NCBI RefSeq assembly: GCF_014696345.1
Contig: NZ_JACJPY010000045.1
Span: 1-35,166 of the forward strand
Reading direction: 5' to 3'
DNA from: Pseudanabaena cinerea FACHB-1277
GTDB lineage: Bacteria; Cyanobacteriota; Cyanobacteriia; Pseudanabaenales; Pseudanabaenaceae
Length of the DNA stretch: 35,166 bases
Shown: positions 15,604 to 34,464 of the stretch, one piece after another
Position numbering within the stretch: the stretch's first letter is position 1
Layout of the letters: the number at the start of each line of letters is the position of its first letter
Program-made: the position numbers and the translations under genes
Notes under the pieces: generated by a model
Seen by the model: the letters and a program-made list of their open reading frames with translations, nothing else
Database searches by the model: none
Told to the model about the DNA's origin: nothing

Positions 15604-18600
15604 ATGACTGTCACCATTCACCATATTCTTGAGCAGTTTCGCCAAGAGGCAACCTCAACCCGTGATTTGGGCGATAAGTTTGAGCATTTGGTATTTGCCT
15701 ATTTGCGAACCGATCCGCAATATCTCGCACTGTTTGAACGGGTGTGGTTTTGGATGGATTTCCCGTTGCGTGGCAAGAAGGGAGATTTGGGGATTGATTT
15801 GGTGGCTCAGGAGAGGGCAACGGGTGACTATTGGGCGATTCAGTGTAAGTGCTATCAGCCCGATCATTCGTTGGATAAAGGAGATATTGATTCATTTTTT
15901 ACGGCTTCAGGTAAAAAACCGTTTAAGCATCGCTTGATTGTCGCTACTTGCGAATGGGGTAAAAATGCCGAAGATGCACTAAAAAATCAGCAAATTCCTG
16001 TCGATCGCCTAACCCTATACGATCTCGATCAAAGTCCTGTGGATTGGAGTCAGGTGAGTTCGCAAAATTTGCGCTATGCGGTGCAGAGTGTTTCTACGAG
16101 TATTAATGATAATGATGATGAGTTAGAAACTAGATCGCCCGTTTTACCGTTAAAGCCGAAGAAATCCATTAGACCGCATCAGGTTACTGCTTTGGAAAAG
16201 GTGATGGCGGGATTTGAGACAGGCGATCGCGGTAAGTTGATCATGGCTTGCGGGACGGGTAAGACCTATACGGCTTTGCAGATTGCGGAGAGGTTTGCGA
16301 TCGCTAAAGGTAGCGCGACTGTTTTATTTTTAGTGCCTTCGATTTCGCTCTTGTCGCAGACTTTGCGGGAATGGTCGGCGGAGGCAACGGTGAAGTTGCA
16401 GAGTATTGCGGTTTGTTCGGATGCAAAGGTGTCGAAAAAGTCGGATATGGAAGATATGAGCGCCCGTGATTTGGCTTTTCCTGCAACTACGGATGTCGAT
16501 GTAATTGTGGGGAGGTATCAGGCGCTTTGCCCTCACCCCCCAGCCCCCTCTCCCAGAACGGGAGAAGGGGAGCAAGAAAAAGAGTCTTTAAGTCCCTCTC
16601 CCCCCTTGGGAGAGGGATTTAGGGTGAGGGCAGAACCTCAGCTTACGGTGATCTTTTCCACTTATCAATCAATTCAGGCGATCGCCGATGCACAGAAAAA
16701 AGGATTACCAGAGTTTGATTTGATTACTTGCGATGAGGCGCATCGGACTACGGGCGTGACTTTGGCGGGGGAAGATGATTCGCATTTTGTGAAGGTGCAT
16801 GATCAGGACTTTATTAAGGCGAAAAAACGGCTGTATATGACGGCTACGCCTCGACTTTATGCGGATTCGGCTAAGAGTAAGGCTAAGGAAAATGAGGCGA
16901 TCGTCTGTTCGATGGACGATGAGAAAATCTATGGTCAAGAGTTCCATCGCTTAGGATTTGCGGAAGCGGTGGCGACGGGGTTATTGACGGATTATAAGGT
17001 GATGGTGTTGGCTGTGGATGAGAAGTATGTCAGCGCTACTTTTCAGCGTCAGTTAGCCGATGACAATAACGAACTCAGGCTAGAGGACGCAGTGAAGATC
17101 ACGGGTTGTTGGAATGGATTATCAAAGCGATTTGCGGCGGAAAGTGATCGCGAAGATGTGCAGGGAGATATTGCACCGATGCGCCGTGCTGTGGCTTTTG
17201 CAGGGACGATCGCTGCTTCTGAGAAAAGATTTACGGAGATGTTTTCGCAAATCATTGAGGAATATCAAAAGACCCATCCCGATGAGGAGATTCTGCCCTG
17301 TGAGGTGCAGCACGTTGATGGGAAGCAGAATGTGATGGTTCGTAATCAGAAGCTAGATTGGCTGAAGGCGGATACGAGCAGTCAAGGTAATCTTTGTCGG
17401 ATTCTCTCTAATGCGCGATGCCTGTCGGAAGGGGTGGATGTACCTGCGTTGGATGCTGTGATTTTCCTGTCGCCGCGTAACTCGGTGGTGGATGTGGTGC
17501 AGTCGGTGGGGCGGGTGATGCGAAGGGCTGAGGGCAAGAAGTACGGTTATATTATTTTGCCGATTGGGATTCCTGCGGATATGACTCCAGAGGAGGCGCT
17601 GAAGGATCATGAGAAATATAAGGTGGTCTGGCAGGTGCTGCAAGCCTTACGCGCCCATGACGATCGCTTTAATGCGATTATCAACAAAATCGAGTTGAAT
17701 GAAACTAGACCGACGCAAGTGGATGTGATTGGTGTCGGTGGCGGCGCGTCCGATGATGGGTCAAAGGTCGGGAATGGTCAGCCGAAAGCGAAACAAATGA
17801 CGCTAAATTTTCCGCAATTGGATGAGTGGCGCGATGCGATCTATGCCAAGATTGTCGTTAAATGTGGCGATCGCCGTTATTGGGAAGATTGGGCGAAGGA
17901 TGTGGCGCAAATTGCCGATCGCCATACATCACGGATTAGAGCTTTGTTGTCTAGTTCGGAAGCTACGCACCGTCAAGCTTTTGATAGTTTTTTGGAGGGT
18001 TTGCGCTGTAATCTCAATCCCAGTATTAGTGAGTCCGATGCGATCGAGATGTTGTCACAGCATTTGATCACTAAGCCTGTGTTTGATGCGTTGTTTGAGG
18101 ATTATCAGTTTACGCAATTAAATCCTGTTTCGATTGCGATGCAAAAGATGCTGGATGCTTTGGAGGGGCAGTCTTTGGGTAAGGAGATTGCGACTTTGGA
18201 TAAGTTTTATGCGAGTGTGAAGACGCGAGCGAGTGGGATTGATAATGCTGAGGGTAAGCAGAAGATAATTATTGAGCTTTACGATAAGTTTTTTAAGAAT
18301 GCTTTTCCTCGCATGGCGGAACGGTTGGGAATTGTGTATACGCCTGTGGAGGTGGTGGATTTTATTGTGCGAAGTGCGGATGATGCGCTGCGTCTGGAGT
18401 TTGGGGTGGGCTTGACGGATGAAAATGTGCATATTCTCGATCCGTTTACGGGGACGGGGACTTTTATGGTGCGGTTGTTGCAGAATGGTTTGATTGCGCC
18501 GCAGGATTTGGAACGGAAGTATCATCAGGAGCTTCACGCGAATGAGATTGTGTTGTTGGCGTATTACATCGCGGCGATTAATATTGAGGCGGCGTTTCAT

Positions 18601-20778
18601 GATCTTCTCCCTCACCCCCCAGCCCCCTCTCCCAAGGGGCGAGGGGGAGCAAATTCAGATTCTTTTTCTGGTTCCCCTCTCCCTCTGGGAGAGGGGCTAG
18701 GGGTGAGGGCTAATCTCTCAAGTTCAGAAGTTGACCCTCACCCCCCAGCCCCCTCTCCCAAGGGGCGAGGGGGAGCAAATTCGGATTCTTTTTCTGGTTC
18801 CCCTTTCCCTTTGGGAGAGGGGCTAGGGGTGAGGGCTTACCAACCCTTTAACGGCATTGTCCTTACTGATACATTTCAGATGTTTGAGAGTCAGGGAACT
18901 TTGAATGAAGTGATGTTTCCTGAAAATAATCAGCGTGTGGTGAGGCAGCGAAATAATGATATTCGCGTCATTATTGGCAATCCGCCTTATTCGGCAGGGC
19001 AGACTAGCCAAAATGATGGAAATCAAAATTTAGAATACACAGAACTAGATAAGACAATACGCAACACTTACGCAAAAAATTCTTCTGCTTCGTCAGTAAG
19101 AAATTTATACGATTCATATATTAGAGCGATTCGATGGGCAAGCGATCGCATCAAGAATAAAGGCATTGTCTGCTTCGTAACGAATGGCTCATTTATTGAC
19201 AGCAACAATATGGATGGATTGCGTAAATGTCTAACCGATGAGTTTACGAGCGTTTATTGTTTCAATTTGCGAGGGAATCAGCGCACATCTGGCGAAACTT
19301 CACGACAGGAAGGCGGTAAAATTTTCGGTTCAGGAAGTCGCGCCGCGATCGCCATAACTTTACTGATCAAAAATCCTGAAAAAACAGGAGAGCATCAACT
19401 TTTTTATCACGATATTGGCGATTATTTAAGCCGTGAAGAAAAGCTTGACAAAATTAAAAATTTTGGCAGTTTCACAAGTATTAACTGGGATTCACTGCTC
19501 CCCAACGACAGCCAAGACTGGATAAATCAACGTGATCCAGAATTTGATGAATTTATTTCATTAGGAGACAAAAAAGATAAATCAAATAAAACTATTTTTG
19601 ATGAATATTCTCTTGGTATAGCTACAGCGAGAGATATATGGACTTACAATTTTTCTCGTCATAGCTTAATTGAAAATATGACTGAAATGATTCACTTCTA
19701 CAATTCACAAGTTGAAGATTTTAAGATTTATTCACAAGGTAAAACCTTTAGTAATGTTGAAGCAAGACAAAAGCAAGTAGAAGTTTTTATTAATACAGAT
19801 CCCAAAAGCATAAGCTGGTCAAGAGGTCTAAAAAACGATCTTGGCAGGTTAGTTAATTATGAATTTAATAACGATTCAGTTGTGAAAGGAATGTATCGCC
19901 CCTATTGCAAACAATGGAGCTATTTCAATAAGCATTTTAACGACATGGTTTACCAAATACCGAAAATATTCCCAAATGAAAATCTGAGAAATTTGGTGAT
20001 TAGCGTAACTGGAATCGGTGCAAGCAAAGGATTTTCAGCACTTATTACCGATGCAATCCCCAACTTACACTTACACGATACTGGTCAATGCTTCCCACTT
20101 TATACCTATGAAAAACCCGAACCAACCGACCAAACATCACTCTTCCTAACCGAAACAGGCTACACCAAAAAAGAAAACATCCCCGACACCATCCTCAGCG
20201 ACTTCCAAACCACCTATCAAGACCAAACCATTACCAAAGAAGACATCTTCTATTATGTCTATGGCATCCTCCATAGCCCCGAATACAAACAACGCTTCGC
20301 CGCCGACCTCAAAAAAATGCTGCCCCGCATCCCCTACGCCGCCGACTTCCACAGCTTCAGCACCGCAGGACGCAACCTCGCCCAATGGCATCTCAACTAT
20401 GAAAATATAGAACCATATCCATTAGAAGAATTCAAAAGCGAACTCTATCTCGAAGACAAAGACTATCGCGTATCCAAAATGAAATTTGGAGTCAAAAACA
20501 AAGCGATCGACAAAACCACCATCATCTACAACAGCAAAATCACCCTCTCAGGCATCCCATTACAAGCCTACGAATACATCGTCAACGGCAAACCCGCCCT
20601 AGAATGGATCATGGAACGCTATCAACTCACCCGCGACAAAGATAGCGGCATTACCAATAATCCCAACGACTGGTCAGACGACCCGCACTACATCATCGAC
20701 CTAGTTAAACGCATCGTCCGCGTCAGTATCGAATCCGTTAAAATTGTGAATAGCCTGCCACCATTGAATGAGAGATAG
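15604..20778 (+). CDS. Single-chain type ISP restriction-modification enzyme (nuclease-helicase-methyltransferase)
   Basis: A 1,724-residue enzyme with the domain order of LlaBIII-like type ISP systems. The N-terminal Mrr-like PD-(D/E)XK nuclease has Glu27, Asp65 (GDLGIDLVAQ) and QCK at 80-82. The SF2 helicase has GTGKT at 217-221, DEAH at 377-380, MTATPR, and QSVGRVMRR. After a linker comes an adenine-N6 methyltransferase with motif I DPFTGTGTF (from 946) and motif IV NPPY (1126-1129), then a C-terminal target-recognition region. Such enzymes methylate one strand of an asymmetric site and cut after head-on collision of two translocating enzymes. All motifs are intact and the frame is open, so activity is possible. 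Three 34-codon repeat insertions sit at residues about 309-343, 1002-1036 and 1044-1078. Without them the length (about 1,620) is close to known members. Base composition changes sharply near 20,100. The recognition site cannot be read from sequence. Confidence 0.93.
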   Translation: MTVTIHHILEQFRQEATSTRDLGDKFEHLVFAYLRTDPQYLALFERVWFWMDFPLRGKKGDLGIDLVAQERATGDYWAIQCKCYQPDHSLDKGDIDSFFTASGKKPFKHRLIVATCEWGKNAEDALKNQQIPVDRLTLYDLDQSPVDWSQVSSQNLRYAVQSVSTSINDNDDELETRSPVLPLKPKKSIRPHQVTALEKVMAGFETGDRGKLIMACGTGKTYTALQIAERFAIAKGSATVLFLVPSISLLSQTLREWSAEATVKLQSIAVCSDAKVSKKSDMEDMSARDLAFPATTDVDVIVGRYQALCPHPPAPSPRTGEGEQEKESLSPSPPLGEGFRVRAEPQLTVIFSTYQSIQAIADAQKKGLPEFDLITCDEAHRTTGVTLAGEDDSHFVKVHDQDFIKAKKRLYMTATPRLYADSAKSKAKENEAIVCSMDDEKIYGQEFHRLGFAEAVATGLLTDYKVMVLAVDEKYVSATFQRQLADDNNELRLEDAVKITGCWNGLSKRFAAESDREDVQGDIAPMRRAVAFAGTIAASEKRFTEMFSQIIEEYQKTHPDEEILPCEVQHVDGKQNVMVRNQKLDWLKADTSSQGNLCRILSNARCLSEGVDVPALDAVIFLSPRNSVVDVVQSVGRVMRRAEGKKYGYIILPIGIPADMTPEEALKDHEKYKVVWQVLQALRAHDDRFNAIINKIELNETRPTQVDVIGVGGGASDDGSKVGNGQPKAKQMTLNFPQLDEWRDAIYAKIVVKCGDRRYWEDWAKDVAQIADRHTSRIRALLSSSEATHRQAFDSFLEGLRCNLNPSISESDAIEMLSQHLITKPVFDALFEDYQFTQLNPVSIAMQKMLDALEGQSLGKEIATLDKFYASVKTRASGIDNAEGKQKIIIELYDKFFKNAFPRMAERLGIVYTPVEVVDFIVRSADDALRLEFGVGLTDENVHILDPFTGTGTFMVRLLQNGLIAPQDLERKYHQELHANEIVLLAYYIAAINIEAAFHDLLPHPPAPSPKGRGGANSDSFSGSPLPLGEGLGVRANLSSSEVDPHPPAPSPKGRGGANSDSFSGSPFPLGEGLGVRAYQPFNGIVLTDTFQMFESQGTLNEVMFPENNQRVVRQRNNDIRVIIGNPPYSAGQTSQNDGNQNLEYTELDKTIRNTYAKNSSASSVRNLYDSYIRAIRWASDRIKNKGIVCFVTNGSFIDSNNMDGLRKCLTDEFTSVYCFNLRGNQRTSGETSRQEGGKIFGSGSRAAIAITLLIKNPEKTGEHQLFYHDIGDYLSREEKLDKIKNFGSFTSINWDSLLPNDSQDWINQRDPEFDEFISLGDKKDKSNKTIFDEYSLGIATARDIWTYNFSRHSLIENMTEMIHFYNSQVEDFKIYSQGKTFSNVEARQKQVEVFINTDPKSISWSRGLKNDLGRLVNYEFNNDSVVKGMYRPYCKQWSYFNKHFNDMVYQIPKIFPNENLRNLVISVTGIGASKGFSALITDAIPNLHLHDTGQCFPLYTYEKPEPTDQTSLFLTETGYTKKENIPDTILSDFQTTYQDQTITKEDIFYYVYGILHSPEYKQRFAADLKKMLPRIPYAADFHSFSTAGRNLAQWHLNYENIEPYPLEEFKSELYLEDKDYRVSKMKFGVKNKAIDKTTIIYNSKITLSGIPLQAYEYIVNGKPALEWIMERYQLTRDKDSGITNNPNDWSDDPHYIIDLVKRIVRVSIESVKIVNSLPPLNER
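16530..16631 (+). repeat. 102-bp palindromic repeat, copy 1, inside the helicase domain
   Basis: The ends are inverted repeats (CCCTCACCC ... GGGTGAGGG) with further inner C-rich/G-rich complementarity. The insertion is exactly 34 codons and is read as CPHPPAPSPRTGEGEQEKES and on, a Pro/Gly-rich stretch between helicase motifs Ia and Ib. It is the most diverged of the three copies (a different centre). Confidence 0.9.
18609..18710 (+). repeat. 102-bp palindromic repeat, copy 2, inside the methyltransferase domain
   Basis: Same length, orientation and reading phase as copy 1. It is read as PHPPAPSPKGRGGANSDSFS and on, and lies between methyltransferase motifs I (946) and IV (1126). It is nearly identical to copy 3, which follows after 24 bp. 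Confidence 0.9.
18735..18836 (+). repeat. 102-bp palindromic repeat, copy 3, inside the methyltransferase domain
   Basis: It differs from copy 2 at only a few bases (for example CAGAT to CGGAT, and CTCTCCCTCTGG to CTTTCCCTTTGG). Copies 2 and 3 form a tandem with a 126-bp period (42 codons), so one probably arose by local duplication of the other. Confidence 0.9.
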
Positions 20779-32012: not shown

Positions 32013-32037
32013 TCTTTCGGGTAATTTCTACAGTTAA

Positions 32038-32152
32038 GCGATCGCTGCTTGTTGTTGTTGGTTTGTTGAGGGGGCGATCGCTTGTGTGGTGAGAGTATGG
32101 ATATTTGAAGCGATCGCTGTTTGGTGTTGTTAGTTTGTTGAGGGGCGATTGC
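32038..32152 (+). repeat. HIP1-bounded repeats, two type A copies
   Basis: The type A unit is about 43 bp: it begins GCGATCGCTGTTTGGTGTTG, continues TTGGTTTGTTGAGG, and ends GGCGATCGC. Copies lie at 32038-32081 and 32110-32152 (last octamer degenerate, GCGATTGC), joined by a linker TTGTGTGGTGAGAGTATGGA that recurs at other sites. They separate the membrane-protein gene from the YefM/YoeB module. Confidence 0.85.
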
Positions 32153-32167
32153 TTTAACAAAAAAAGT

Positions 32168-32186
32168 GGTACGATAAATTGTACGA
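32168..32186 (+). promoter_or_regulatory. Possible operator of the YefM/YoeB module
   Basis: GGTACGA (32168-32174) and TGTACGA (32180-32186) repeat at a 12-bp interval just before the antitoxin start. E. coli YefM binds repeats with a TGTACA core, so autoregulation through these GTAC cores is plausible. Only the core resembles it. Confidence 0.35.
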
Positions 32187-32200
32187 GTTTGGGTTTATTA

Positions 32201-32464
32201 ATGAAAATCCTTAATGCAAGTGAAGCGAGAGCCAACTTGTTCAGCTTAGTCGAACAGGTTAACAAAGATCATTTACCAAGATTTATTACCAGTCGGCAAG
32301 GTGACGCGGTACTTCTATCTAAAGCTGACTGGGAAAGTATACAGGAAACTCTCTATCTACAGTCTATTCCTAATTTAGTTGAGTCAATTAAAGCCGCCGA
32401 ACAAGCGAATGATTGGGTTTCTGAAGATGATTTCTTAGGAGCCTTGAATGGATTGGAAGATTGA
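32201..32464 (+). CDS. Phd/YefM-family antitoxin
   Basis: An 87-residue protein from ATG 32201; the open frame extends upstream into the repeat, but MKILNASEARANLFSLVEQV is the standard Phd/YefM start. The N-terminal domain (to about residue 52, ITSRQGDAVLLSKADWESIQ) binds DNA. The C-terminal, disordered, acidic part (EQANDWVSEDDFLGALNGLE) wraps the toxin. It overlaps the toxin gene by 17 bp, so translation is coupled. Confidence 0.92.
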   Translation: MKILNASEARANLFSLVEQVNKDHLPRFITSRQGDAVLLSKADWESIQETLYLQSIPNLVESIKAAEQANDWVSEDDFLGALNGLED

Positions 32465-32705
32465 ATTTAGTCGAAATGTGTTTAAGGATGCCAAAAAGCT
32501 AAAGTCTGCCAATTTAGACTCAAACCTCAAATCTCTACTAGAAATACTCAAACAGAATCCTTATGAACCTCCCTATGAAAAGCTTTCAGGCAACTTGCAA
32601 GGATATTTCTCAAGACGTATCAATATCAAACATCGATTGGTTTATGCCATCAACGAAGAAACTAAAACTATTAGAGTTGTTTCTGTGTGGTCACATTATG
32701 AATAG
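32448..32705 (+). CDS. YoeB/Txe-family mRNA interferase toxin
   Basis: An 85-residue RelE-fold toxin. By position, Glu44, Arg63, His83 and Tyr84 correspond to the catalytic Glu46, Arg65, His83 and Tyr84 of E. coli YoeB; the protein ends WSHYE as the family does. YoeB binds the ribosome A site and cuts mRNA behind start codons. All residues are present, so it should be active. It is followed 9 bp later by a type A repeat. Confidence 0.93.
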   Translation: MDWKIEFSRNVFKDAKKLKSANLDSNLKSLLEILKQNPYEPPYEKLSGNLQGYFSRRINIKHRLVYAINEETKTIRVVSVWSHYE

Positions 32706-32714
32706 CAAAATCTG

Positions 32715-32757
32715 GCGATCGCTGTTTGGTGTTGTTGGTTTGTTGAGAGGCGATCGC
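32715..32757 (+). repeat. HIP1-bounded repeat, one type A copy
   Basis: A single 43-bp type A unit with both GCGATCGC ends intact. It lies between the YoeB stop codon (9 bp) and the stop codon of the oppositely oriented DUF5615 gene (6 bp), so almost no other sequence separates the two modules. Confidence 0.88.
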
Positions 32758-32763
32758 ATATTT

Positions 32764-33126
32764 CTAAATTGGCAAACGCCTTACTCGATATCGTTCATCA
32801 GACACGATTATTACAGATCCCATATCTAAATCTTCTATGCAATTTTCTAGAATATTTTGCAATCGATTTAAAACAAACTGAGGCGATGTGTTTTTTAATC
32901 GAAAGATAATCACACTTGGCAAATCTGCTTTACTCACAGCCATCAGATCACCAAAATCTAAATCAAAAGTCAAAATGGTACGGTCTTCTAACTTAGCCTT
33001 CTCAACAATCAAAGGATCGGGTAAACATTGCAATCCCTCATCCCTAAGATGCTTTGCATCATGACCCATTTGACACAAAGCTTTCACAACTGTCTGTGAA
33101 ACTCCCATATCTGCTAAAAGCTTCAT
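32764..33126 (-). CDS. DUF5615 PIN-like toxin
   Basis: A 120-residue protein of the Mut7-C/PIN-like DUF5615 family. Marks are MKLLADMGVSQTVVKALCQM (Asp6, first acidic residue), GHDAKHLRDEGL, and TILTFDLDFGDLM (the acidic pair of the active site). Proteins of this family pair with DUF433 antitoxins and are presumed ribonucleases. The usual start is LLDEN rather than LADMG, so the second acidic residue of that motif is missing; activity may be altered. Its ATG overlaps the stop of the DUF433 gene (33123-33126). Confidence 0.88.
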   Translation of the reverse strand: MKLLADMGVSQTVVKALCQMGHDAKHLRDEGLQCLPDPLIVEKAKLEDRTILTFDLDFGDLMAVSKADLPSVIIFRLKNTSPQFVLNRLQNILENCIEDLDMGSVIIVSDERYRVRRLPI

Positions 33127-33362
33127 CCACTCATTCCAGCAAAACTACGCACTTCCTCATTTGCCAGAAAAGCAGCGTACAACAGGCTTGCCCGAATATC
33201 TTCAGCCTCAAGATCGGGATATTCACGCAGAATTTCTATTGTTGTTAAACCATTTGCAATTAGACTTAACACGAGTGAAACTGTGATTCGCATTCCCCTA
33301 ATGCAAGCCCGTCCACCCATGATCTGCGGGTTGAATGTGATGCGATCTAAAGTTTTTTGCAT
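33123..33362 (-). CDS. DUF433 antitoxin
   Basis: A 79-residue DUF433 protein: QKTLDRITFNPQIMGGRACI, RGMRITVSLVLSLIANGLTT, then EILREYPDLEAEDIRASLLY. The GGRACIRGMRI block and the following winged helix-like region are the family signature; members resemble VapB45-type antitoxins. It is first in the operon and overlaps the DUF5615 toxin by four bases (ATGA), so the two are coupled. Confidence 0.92.
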   Translation of the reverse strand: MQKTLDRITFNPQIMGGRACIRGMRITVSLVLSLIANGLTTIEILREYPDLEAEDIRASLLYAAFLANEEVRSFAGMSG

Positions 33363-33440
33363 ATATTAAATTTTTTAACTAAGCATACTTATTATCATCG
33401 CAATCAATACTTTTTGACAAAGACATCACCAATTTGTCAT

Positions 33441-33603
33441 GCGATCGCTGTTTGATGTTGTTGGTTTGTTGAGGGGTGATCGCTTTGTTGATTGAGATTA
33501 GGGGCGATCGCTGTTTGGTGTTGTTGGTTTGTTGAGGGGCGATCGCTCGTGGGTGAGAGTATTGATGATTGAGGCGATCGCTGTTTGATTGAGATTAGGG
33601 GCT
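33441..33603 (+). repeat. HIP1-bounded repeats, two type A and two type B copies
   Basis: Order: A 33441-33483, B 33476-33511, A 33504-33546, a linker (CGTGGGTGAGAGTATTGATG), then B from 33574, which ends at 33602-33603 without its second octamer. The type B unit is shorter: GCGATCGCTGTTTGATTGAG, then ATTAGGGGCGATCGC. Neighbouring units share the HIP1 octamer at their junction. The block separates the DUF433/DUF5615 module from the first BrnTA pair. Confidence 0.85.
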
Positions 33604-33617
33604 ATTACCAAGAAATT

Positions 33618-33902
33618 CTAATCGTTTGTCGTTGTGACATAAGATTTATGTGCTTCTGCGTAAATTTTTAAAGCGACTGACATTTGCTGCGATGCATTCT
33701 CACCTTGCGATTGAAACCATGCAAAAGTTTCAGAATCGATTTGAACTGATGCTGTAATTTGTTTAGGACTTCTCAATTTGGCTTTAGCCCAAAACTCTGC
33801 TGATAATGGAGGAATATCAGATGTATCAATATCCTCATCACCCATTGCGTCAATTCTCGCCCAATCAGTCTTCGATGTATTGTTCATAGTATCTGCGTTC
33901 AT
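33618..33902 (-). CDS. brnA: BrnA-family antitoxin, first copy
   Basis: A 94-residue protein if started at 33902; a second ATG at 33887 (MNNTSKTDWARIDAMGDEDI) is equally possible. DTSDIPPLSAEFWAKAKLR and the C-terminal ribbon-helix-helix (KQITASVQIDSETFAWFQSQ) match BrnA: an acidic N-terminal toxin-binding part and a DNA-binding C-terminus. The start region overlaps the 3' end of brnT by 23-38 bp, as is usual for brnTA. Confidence 0.9.
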   Translation of the reverse strand: MNADTMNNTSKTDWARIDAMGDEDIDTSDIPPLSAEFWAKAKLRSPKQITASVQIDSETFAWFQSQGENASQQMSVALKIYAEAHKSYVTTTND

Positions 33903-34143
33903 AAGATAGAGCCTTTCTTAATGAAATAATCCTAATTGTTTGTTCGTCAGGTTCTGTATAGACAACCACCACGAATCGACCTTGAAGTAAACCAATACCG
34001 ATATACCGATCCTCTCCATAGTTTTCTCTTGCGTCAAGTTCAACAACCATAGGCAAATTAAAAACTAGATAAGCGTCAGCAAAGTCAAATCCATGTTTAG
34101 CGAGGTTAATTTGTTTTTTACGTTCATCCCACTCAAATCTCAT
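33865..34143 (-). CDS. brnT: BrnT-family ribonuclease toxin, first copy
   Basis: A 92-residue RelE-like fold toxin. FEWDERKKQINLAKHGFDFA is the BrnT signature start, then NYGEDRYIGIGLLQGRFVVV and IRIISLRKALSYERRYYEQY, which carries the Arg residues expected at the active site. The toxin gene precedes the antitoxin gene, as in other brnTA operons. Confidence 0.93.
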   Translation of the reverse strand: MRFEWDERKKQINLAKHGFDFADAYLVFNLPMVVELDARENYGEDRYIGIGLLQGRFVVVVYTEPDEQTIRIISLRKALSYERRYYEQYIED

Positions 34144-34199
34144 TTTAAAGTTTAGTAGTTGTCTGTATTGGGATTTTCCTAATTTTAACTTGTATTTGA

Positions 34200-34459
34200 C
34201 GCTGTTTGATTGAGATTAGGGGCGATCGCTGTTTGGTGTTGTTAGTTTGTTGAGGGGCGATCGCTTGTGTTGTGAAAGTATGGATATTTTAGGCGATCGC
34301 TGTTTGATGAGATTAGGGGTGATCGCTGTTTGATGTTGTTGGTTTATTGGGGGCGATCGCTTGTGTGGTGGAAAGTATAGATATTTTAGGCGATCGCTTT
34401 TTGATTGAGATTAGGGGCGATCGCTGATTGATGTTGTGGGTGTGTTGAAGCGTGATCGT
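34200..34459 (+). repeat. HIP1-bounded repeats, about 97-bp higher-order tandem
   Basis: Type A copies start at 34222, 34319 and 34417 (period 97-98 bp). Each of the first two is followed by the conserved linker (TTGTGTGGTGGAAAGTATAG form) and a type B copy; a type B copy also precedes the first A (34200-34229). The last A is degenerate (ends near 34459). It looked CRISPR-like at first, but the intervening sequences are themselves conserved. It separates the two BrnTA modules. Confidence 0.85.
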
Positions 34460-34464
34460 TCTAC

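Follow-up and report, generated by a model that had tools for sequence, protein, structure and literature searches.

The 35,166-nucleotide contig NZ_JACJPY010000045.1 of Pseudanabaena cinerea FACHB-1277, which we analysed as a whole and call the window (its genome is labelled G000), carries a Type ISP restriction-modification (R-M) gene with three palindromic repeats inside its reading frame. The gene (15604..20778, forward strand) is one open reading frame (ORF) of 1724 aa that comprises a Mrr nuclease, a superfamily 2 (SF2) motor, a coupler, an N6-methyltransferase (MTase) and a Type_ISP_C region; the corresponding Pfam families are PF13156 (Mrr), PF04851 (ResIII), PF00271 (Helicase_C), PF22240 (ISP coupler), PF07669 (Eco57I-type MTase) and PF18135 (Type_ISP_C). 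By domain architecture the product qualifies as a single-chain Type ISP enzyme, with putative ATP-driven translocation, cleavage and methylation. Its closest solved relatives are LlaGI (PDB 5ffj) and LlaBIII (PDB 4xqk), the latter being the top PDB match returned by Foldseek for residues 165-1290. The Walker A sequence GTGKT of the motor (16252..16266; last G, K and T invariant in a 37-sequence alignment), its DEAH box (16732..16743), MTase motif I DPFTGTGTF (18439..18465) and MTase motif IV NPPY (18979..18990) lie on the forward strand outside the inserts and are conserved in the alignment. The names of helicase motifs Ia and Ib and of MTase motifs I and IV are those we take to apply to this protein.

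Palindromic insertions in two loops of the enzyme

The first palindrome (16530..16630; forward strand, like all features that follow) stands alone at site 1, in the motor between motif Ia and STYQS, and encodes PHPPAPSP...GFRVRA. Site 2, in the MTase between motifs I and IV, holds two further copies (18609..18709 and 18735..18835) separated by a spacer of 25 bp (18710..18734). All three belong to one family, here called A, and share strand and reading phase within the ORF; over 103 nt, identity to copy 2 is 97% for copy 3 and 68% for copy 1. An earlier note on this DNA had described three 102-bp copies: their number, common strand and phase, and frame stand, while the palindrome proper is 101 bp (CCCTCA...TGAGGG) and becomes 102 only with one adjoining base. 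The placement given there, copy 1 between motifs Ia and Ib and copies 2 and 3 between motifs I and IV, agrees with the motif order, and the frame is indeed open with the catalytic motifs kept.

Each copy folds better than its dinucleotide shuffles (z -6.09, -6.07 and -7.32, with 0 of 200 shuffles as good in each case), and a pattern for the half-element matches the window twice against no match in 100 shuffles. Because an Rfam scan of the element gave no match at the gathering score, we reject an RNA-family identity. The 3' halves are triplex-motif-like units, reading CCCTCTCCC-GGGAGAGGG-GGGTGAGGG in copy 1 (16594..16630), with counterparts in copy 2 (18675..18709) and, with one substitution, copy 3 (18801..18835). 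When the second loop is allowed 3-5 nt, all three 3' halves match TM-ECO, a triplex motif taken up below, and the 5' halves match only a looser pattern. The second loop is 5 nt, with 9-nt stems, and therefore the published TM-ECO pattern (3-nt second loop, at most one mismatch) finds no match in the window. Judged by its letters, each copy resembles an inverted pair of a G/C-rich triplex-type motif that is open in several reading frames. Elsewhere in the window (32033-34461), a 41-64 bp repeat with GCGATCGC occurs in seven or eight copies at irregular spacing.

Comparison with homologues identifies the three repeats as insertions into the gene. They are absent from LlaBIII, which has 12 residues at site 1 and 5 at site 2 compared with 42 and 76 in the window protein, and LlaGI likewise has short linkers at both sites. 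Among the best 80 of the 171 relatives found, site 1 was readable in 78 and measures 5-9 residues in 71 of them, and site 2 was readable in 79 and measures 4-12 residues in 63; every length at either site is a whole number of codons. With linkers so short and variable in homologues, a conserved domain at the two sites is rejected. Aligning 64 full-length sequences (G000, G022 and 62 of the homologues, with 19 shorter or split ORFs set aside) showed insertions of at least 15 residues in 5 sequences at site 1 and in 6 at site 2. Other expansions lie near residue 733 in 7 sequences, the remainder being found in one or two sequences each. A Cytophagales Type ISP gene (L111) has repeat-like inserts at four separate places.

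The ISP gene is under purifying selection. Outside the inserts, the ratio of nonsynonymous to synonymous substitution rates (dN/dS) is 0.155 over 1605 codons between G000 and G022 and 0.145 over 1265 codons between G000 and G021; for motor residues 345-700 the values are 0.041 and 0.018, respectively. The G022 orthologue, which carries different inserts, stays open over 1857 aa. An IS5-like transposase gene (named by eye) interrupts the G021 orthologue (L048), and in G023 the match is limited to about the first 209 residues, after which the frame is lost. In an AlphaFold2 model of residues 165-1290 (mean predicted local distance difference test score (pLDDT) 76.5, predicted template modelling score 0.68), both inserts are coil between ordered elements: insert 1 (model residues 144-181) has a pLDDT of about 41-49 over 151-180, and insert 2 (model residues 838-914) of about 27-42 over 841-910. 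In the G022 model, insert 1 has a pLDDT of about 25-36, and the site-2 insert is partly a helix extension, at low confidence. On these models the loop reading is supported for the window protein but only in part for the second site of G022.

The earlier note had proposed either tolerated surface loops or an enzyme no longer under selection. Short linkers in LlaBIII, LlaGI and most homologues, together with predicted coil at a pLDDT of mostly 27-49, bear out the former; the latter is not supported by the dN/dS values. Purifying selection and disordered modelled inserts together mean that decay is not supported; the enzyme with its inserts may be active. Synonymous divergence differs between regions; recombination near site 2 was considered but not tied to the palindromes, since by eye the protein differences begin further downstream. 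In G022 (L049), the Type ISP gene and an ATPase-like gene sit, by eye, between two psbA-like copies, and pieces matching the final 70 residues of the enzyme are found again downstream in both G021 and G022.

Reuse of the loops and dispersal of the palindromes

The two loops are reused by unrelated palindrome families in different species. At site 1, five Pseudanabaena-group genomes carry either family A (G000, G021 and G012, where the copy is cut by the contig end) or family B (G022, in tandem with a 102-bp period, and G002, interrupted by a sequence that by eye is insertion sequence (IS)-like). At site 2, family A occurs twice in G000, a B-like element once in G021 and family C twice in G022. 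Within the genus, the orthologues' occupants at both sites are in frame. Beyond it, Cuspidothrix has two further palindromes at these sites (z -9.0 and -7.0), a Cytophagales metagenome-assembled genome (MAG) has one (z -5.5), and so does Okeania (z -2.5; a second Okeania gives z -1.7).

Such swapping extends to two other R-M groups of the genus, by protein reading, with nucleotides compared for one of the groups. In one, a single site holds family A (G012, G016) or B (G018, G019). In an IIG/DISARM-type MTase, the site before motif IV is occupied by B (G025) or a repeat that by eye is C-like (G023), and is just a linker of four residues in G022; a second site carries another repeat (G025, G023) or A (G022). 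The reuse of sites by unrelated families, its recurrence in other R-M enzymes of the genus and the DUF559 flanking described below all go beyond the earlier note.

Families A, B and F are dispersed repeats. Allowing up to 3 mismatches, family A has 17 copies in G000, of which 9 lie in frame within long ORFs, and 35, 81 and 42 matches in G021, G022 and G023. Family B has 40, 6 and 118 matches in G000, G021 and G022, five of those in G022 lying in the ISP gene, against none for its backwards-read control. Family F gives 157 strand matches in Cuspidothrix, where the palindrome is mostly counted on both strands, and family E 9 and 40 in the two Okeania.

We counted a family-A copy as in frame when at least 60 open residues flanked it on both sides, which gave 22 of 81 in G022, 4 of 39 in G023 (39 of its 42 matches were counted) and 9 of 17 in G000; 10 of the 35 matches in G021 were looked at and none counted. 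These 35 in-frame copies from three genomes lie in 23 ORFs, some of which are parts of one gene. Core length modulo 3 is 0, 1 and 2 in 5, 8 and 11 of the 24 copies with measurable length; we reject a codon-sized element that preserves the frame by its own length, and the frame must therefore be preserved by the net insert. Terminal inverted repeats (TIRs) of the ACTGATGTTACGTGGAA type (up to 3 mismatches) were found outside the palindrome in 0 of the 35 on either side, so a miniature inverted-repeat transposable element (MITE) with TIRs does not describe the in-frame copies. Of the 102 other family-A copies, 66 have such a TIR on at least one side and 46 on both. Many out-of-frame copies (for example at L069, L072, L083 and L087; in G023 and G022) sit in a MITE-like unit with ACTGATGTTACGTGGAA ends, and the number of near-identical copies suggests that they multiplied recently in G023.

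Of the 23 host ORFs with in-frame copies, 18 were scanned with Pfam. Together with PADLOC, this identified among the hosts two UvrD helicases, HmaB, PriA, MutL, PglZ, HsdR, IIG enzymes, a PLD/SNF2 helicase, an nSTAND1 protein and a WD40 protein, besides an AMP-ligase, a mannosyltransferase, a CobB-type and a CobN-type protein. Insertion confined to R-M genes is rejected, given the AMP-ligase, CobN-type, MutL, PriA and mannosyltransferase hosts. In G021, a family-A copy is in frame in a gene that by eye is an MnmE-like GTPase (L076), between the NKxD motif and the C-terminal part. On plasmid pPg_03 of Pseudanabaena galeata CCNP1313, an MTase spanning several elements is annotated as one coding sequence. 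A plasmid region with MTase, helicase and exonuclease genes (L258, NZ_CP112877.1 150000-165500; L200) has two genes with six in-frame family-A matches each, some of them 54-bp tandem arm repeats.

DUF559 between palindromic arms

In the G022 HmaB and the G011 IIG enzyme, a DUF559 domain (PF04480) lies in frame between family-A arms. One IIG site is known in both states: G011 has a palindrome, DUF559 and an arm where G022 has the palindrome alone, and the flanking DNA matches. In-frame DUF559 between palindromic arms is seen in L274, L264, L273, L262, L268, L272, L260, L285 and L295, in IIG, HmaB, HsdR and Type ISP-like hosts. DUF559 splits Type_ISP_C in L295, and a split of the same ISP type was read in L260 and L285. 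Two Pseudanabaena-group genomes and a Verrucomicrobia MAG have the insertion at the same point of HsdR, just ahead of HTQGSGKS.

The association of DUF559 with palindromes holds in larger sets of loci. We scored inverted repeats between the two 250-bp flanks of each locus, with a score of at least 30 as a pass. As controls we used Uma2, another small family with many cyanobacterial members (30 loci from a separate draw of 20 genomes), and random windows taken from the DUF559 and Uma2 loci. Of these, 0 of 30 and 12 of 354 passed, as against 33 of 45 cyanobacterial DUF559 loci (15 of 21 from one search, and all 30 from another that listed many more matches). Fisher P values are about 1e-11 against Uma2 and 3e-28 against random windows, for loci that are not fully independent. 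By host frame, 18 of 20 loci in ORFs of at least 400 aa passed, and 15 of 25 in shorter ones. In a second set (18 of 30 loci, weak matches left out), 9 of 9 outside cyanobacteria and 5 of 9 cyanobacterial loci passed against 8 of 321 windows; the nine non-cyanobacterial loci come from six MAGs of Ignavibacteria, Cytophagales and Verrucomicrobia.

DUF559 often lies within long frames: 116 cyanobacterial genomes gave 82 strong matches (E <= 7.3e-25), 28 of which are in open frames of at least 500 aa, and the longest frame among the Uma2 matches listed is 500. Hosts by Pfam include leucyl-tRNA synthetase (LeuRS), methionine synthase (MetH), UvrC, HsdR, DUF1156 methylases, IIG and MmeI enzymes and Type_ISP_C; two of the 19 ORFs scanned have no host family besides the nuclease. 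The LeuRS, MetH and UvrC hosts, from Cytophagales and Ignavibacteria MAGs, carry in-frame DUF559 with inverted-repeat flanks (L348 475-3324, L346 1-2688 and L343 778-3324, respectively). Pfam (E <= 1e-5) found no intein family in the 19 host ORFs, so an intein is rejected for want of a splicing family, and in the window protein it detects no intein family and no DUF559. In a Planktothrix DNA methylase (L372), DUF559 lies in a segment that is intein-like by eye, with no inverted-repeat flanks at the threshold.

Origin of the inserts and relation to known systems

The account we favour, and hold to be likely, is that solo selfish palindromes have inserted into reusable, tolerant loops of a working Type ISP enzyme, that arms with DUF559 make up the full mobile unit, and that the solos are its endonuclease-less form. 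A selfish palindromic element would insert in frame into the two surface loops, and would persist in the enzyme because these loops tolerate insertion. The arms and DUF559, a Vsr-like endonuclease domain, would move together, with cleavage by DUF559 and subsequent repair delivering the element, and the solo palindromes, probably its mini-form, would derive from it by lacking the endonuclease. If tolerance is limited to loops, the same sites would for that reason recur. What the sequences show directly is in-frame insertion into an open gene under selection, use of one loop by unrelated families, DUF559 lying between inverted repeats, and a single site known in a full and a solo form; the transposition route, DNA cutting by DUF559 as its driver and activity of the ISP enzyme are steps that we infer.

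Several points weigh against this account. A G020 copy of the IIG gene with DUF559 appears to have lost its frame downstream of the insert, which counts against DUF559 insertions being always in frame, and DUF559 may have inserted into pre-existing palindromes rather than moving with them. The flank threshold of 30 was chosen above the 95% point of the null (24) and not fixed beforehand, and at this threshold no inverted repeat is seen for 12 of the 45 cyanobacterial loci tested first and for 4 of the 9 cyanobacterial loci of the second set. Folding gives no significant palindrome for several expansions at sites 1 and 2 (L104, L116, L119, L142, L159, site 1 of L098 and L100, and shorter ones). 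Family C is rare, with 5 matches, all in G022 and 2 of them in the ISP gene, and family E has only 3 in Cuspidothrix. A backwards-read control for family A also matched (11, 14, 51 and 1 times in G000, G021, G022 and G023), presumably within the same C-rich elements. No target-site duplication was established for the palindromes, and no transposition was observed.

A rather unlikely alternative, though the best of those considered, is a passive filter in which independent palindromes insert at random by mechanisms of their own and only in-frame insertions in loops survive, DUF559 having no causal role. The loops are short and variable in homologues and the inserts are modelled as disordered, as this would have it, and intragenic family-A copies lie on both strands and in several phases, as unspecific insertion followed by selection would give. 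It leaves aside the excess of inverted-repeat flanks around DUF559, far above controls, and the one site known with and without the domain. Less probable again is succession at a safe site, where a first palindrome made each loop dispensable and later elements landed as earlier ones were lost, with hairpin or triplex instability helping. The IS-like interruption in G002, the tandem expansion of family B in G022 and the link, in the portion available of PMC4666352, between triplex motifs and rearranged E. coli loci all favour such turnover; yet expansions of these loops also occur in distant genera, where nothing points to a common first insertion. Both alternatives account for the window's gene nearly as well as mobile palindromes do, but not for the DUF559 association.

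We consider it very unlikely that the inserts are functional, as added loops or RNA hairpins selected for regulating or diversifying R-M enzymes: hosts are often DNA-acting or defence proteins (a tendency for which no genome background was computed) and the hairpins are very stable, but unrelated peptides occupy one site, and inserts or DUF559 also occur in MetH, LeuRS, CobN-type and AMP-ligase proteins. Least credible is a decaying pseudogene gathering junk, which the split G021 copy and the truncated G023 match would suit, against the low dN/dS, the long open frames of the window and G022 genes and the retained catalytic motifs.

Returning to selfish palindromes with a DUF559 full form, we raise more tentatively a broader proposal, to which we give somewhat less than even credence: arm-framed DUF559 could be a widespread mobile class that homes into conserved sites of protein genes, mainly R-M genes, and remains unspliced, with solos standing to it as mini-inteins do to inteins and arm families competing for loops. 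To our knowledge, how palindromes resembling repetitive extragenic palindromes (REPs) or Rickettsia palindromic elements (RPEs) spread, and how they arrive inside protein genes, is largely open. With several unrelated palindromes in one enzyme loop, and a nuclease-like family set between palindromes across several phyla, even in such basic enzymes as LeuRS, MetH and UvrC, mobilisation becomes directly testable using a small nuclease and a defined site on DNA. The palindromes also point to loops where R-M enzymes naturally tolerate insertion, and numerous unusual fusions to DUF559 may have arisen by insertion of a mobile element and not as adaptive domain fusions. A limited literature search, largely without subscription papers, yielded no report of DUF559 framed by palindromes or of different palindrome families at one protein site.

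Among homing systems, one source calls DUF559 Vsr-like (PMC12907096) and another, where it discusses inteins, places it in the EDxHD homing family (PMC9403480). The elements described here share that membership; they differ from intein-type homing in that palindromic arms surround DUF559, the host frame mostly continues and the 19 ORFs hold no Pfam intein family. The REP/RAYT pair (REPtron), in which a DNA-processing gene is flanked by palindromes that it possibly mobilises (PMC3733652, in the part available), offers a parallel. DUF559 flanked by palindromes resembles the RAYT arrangement, with a DUF559 nuclease in place of the tyrosine transposase.

TM-ECO is a purine-motif intrastrand triplex which, in the accessible text of Holder et al. 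(PMC4666352), is always intergenic in E. coli K-12, with five cases of inverted pairs; the same text describes G/C-rich triplex motifs as frequent in cyanobacteria and links them to genome instability. The window copies share the core CCCTCNCCC-GGGNGAGGG-GGGNGAGGG and the sometimes inverted pairing, and differ from the E. coli K-12 copies in lying in frame within a gene. GTAG/CGTC-tagged REPs are palindromes also found in coding regions, many in DNA repair and replication proteins according to the part seen of PMC3733652. Intragenic palindromes are common to both; the family-A unit, however, is about 100 bp, and its ends read CCCTCA and TGAGGG, with no GTAG/CGTC tag there.

The closest parallel in behaviour is with RPEs, which the available portions of PMC10969869 and PMC2229807 describe as dispersed palindromes of about 100-150 bp that lie in frame in unrelated protein genes, with several families per genome. 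The window repeats resemble them in size, dispersal, in-frame coding insertion and the presence of several families, a likeness of behaviour, and to that extent the analogy made in the earlier note is a fair one. They differ in organism, in that unrelated families share one exact site across species, and in having a nuclease domain flanked by palindromes of this sort. Palindromes within coding sequence are already known from RPEs and intragenic REPs, and the repeats described here behave like the RPE type: they are dispersed, lie in frame in unrelated genes and, for the ISP enzyme, are absent from homologues.
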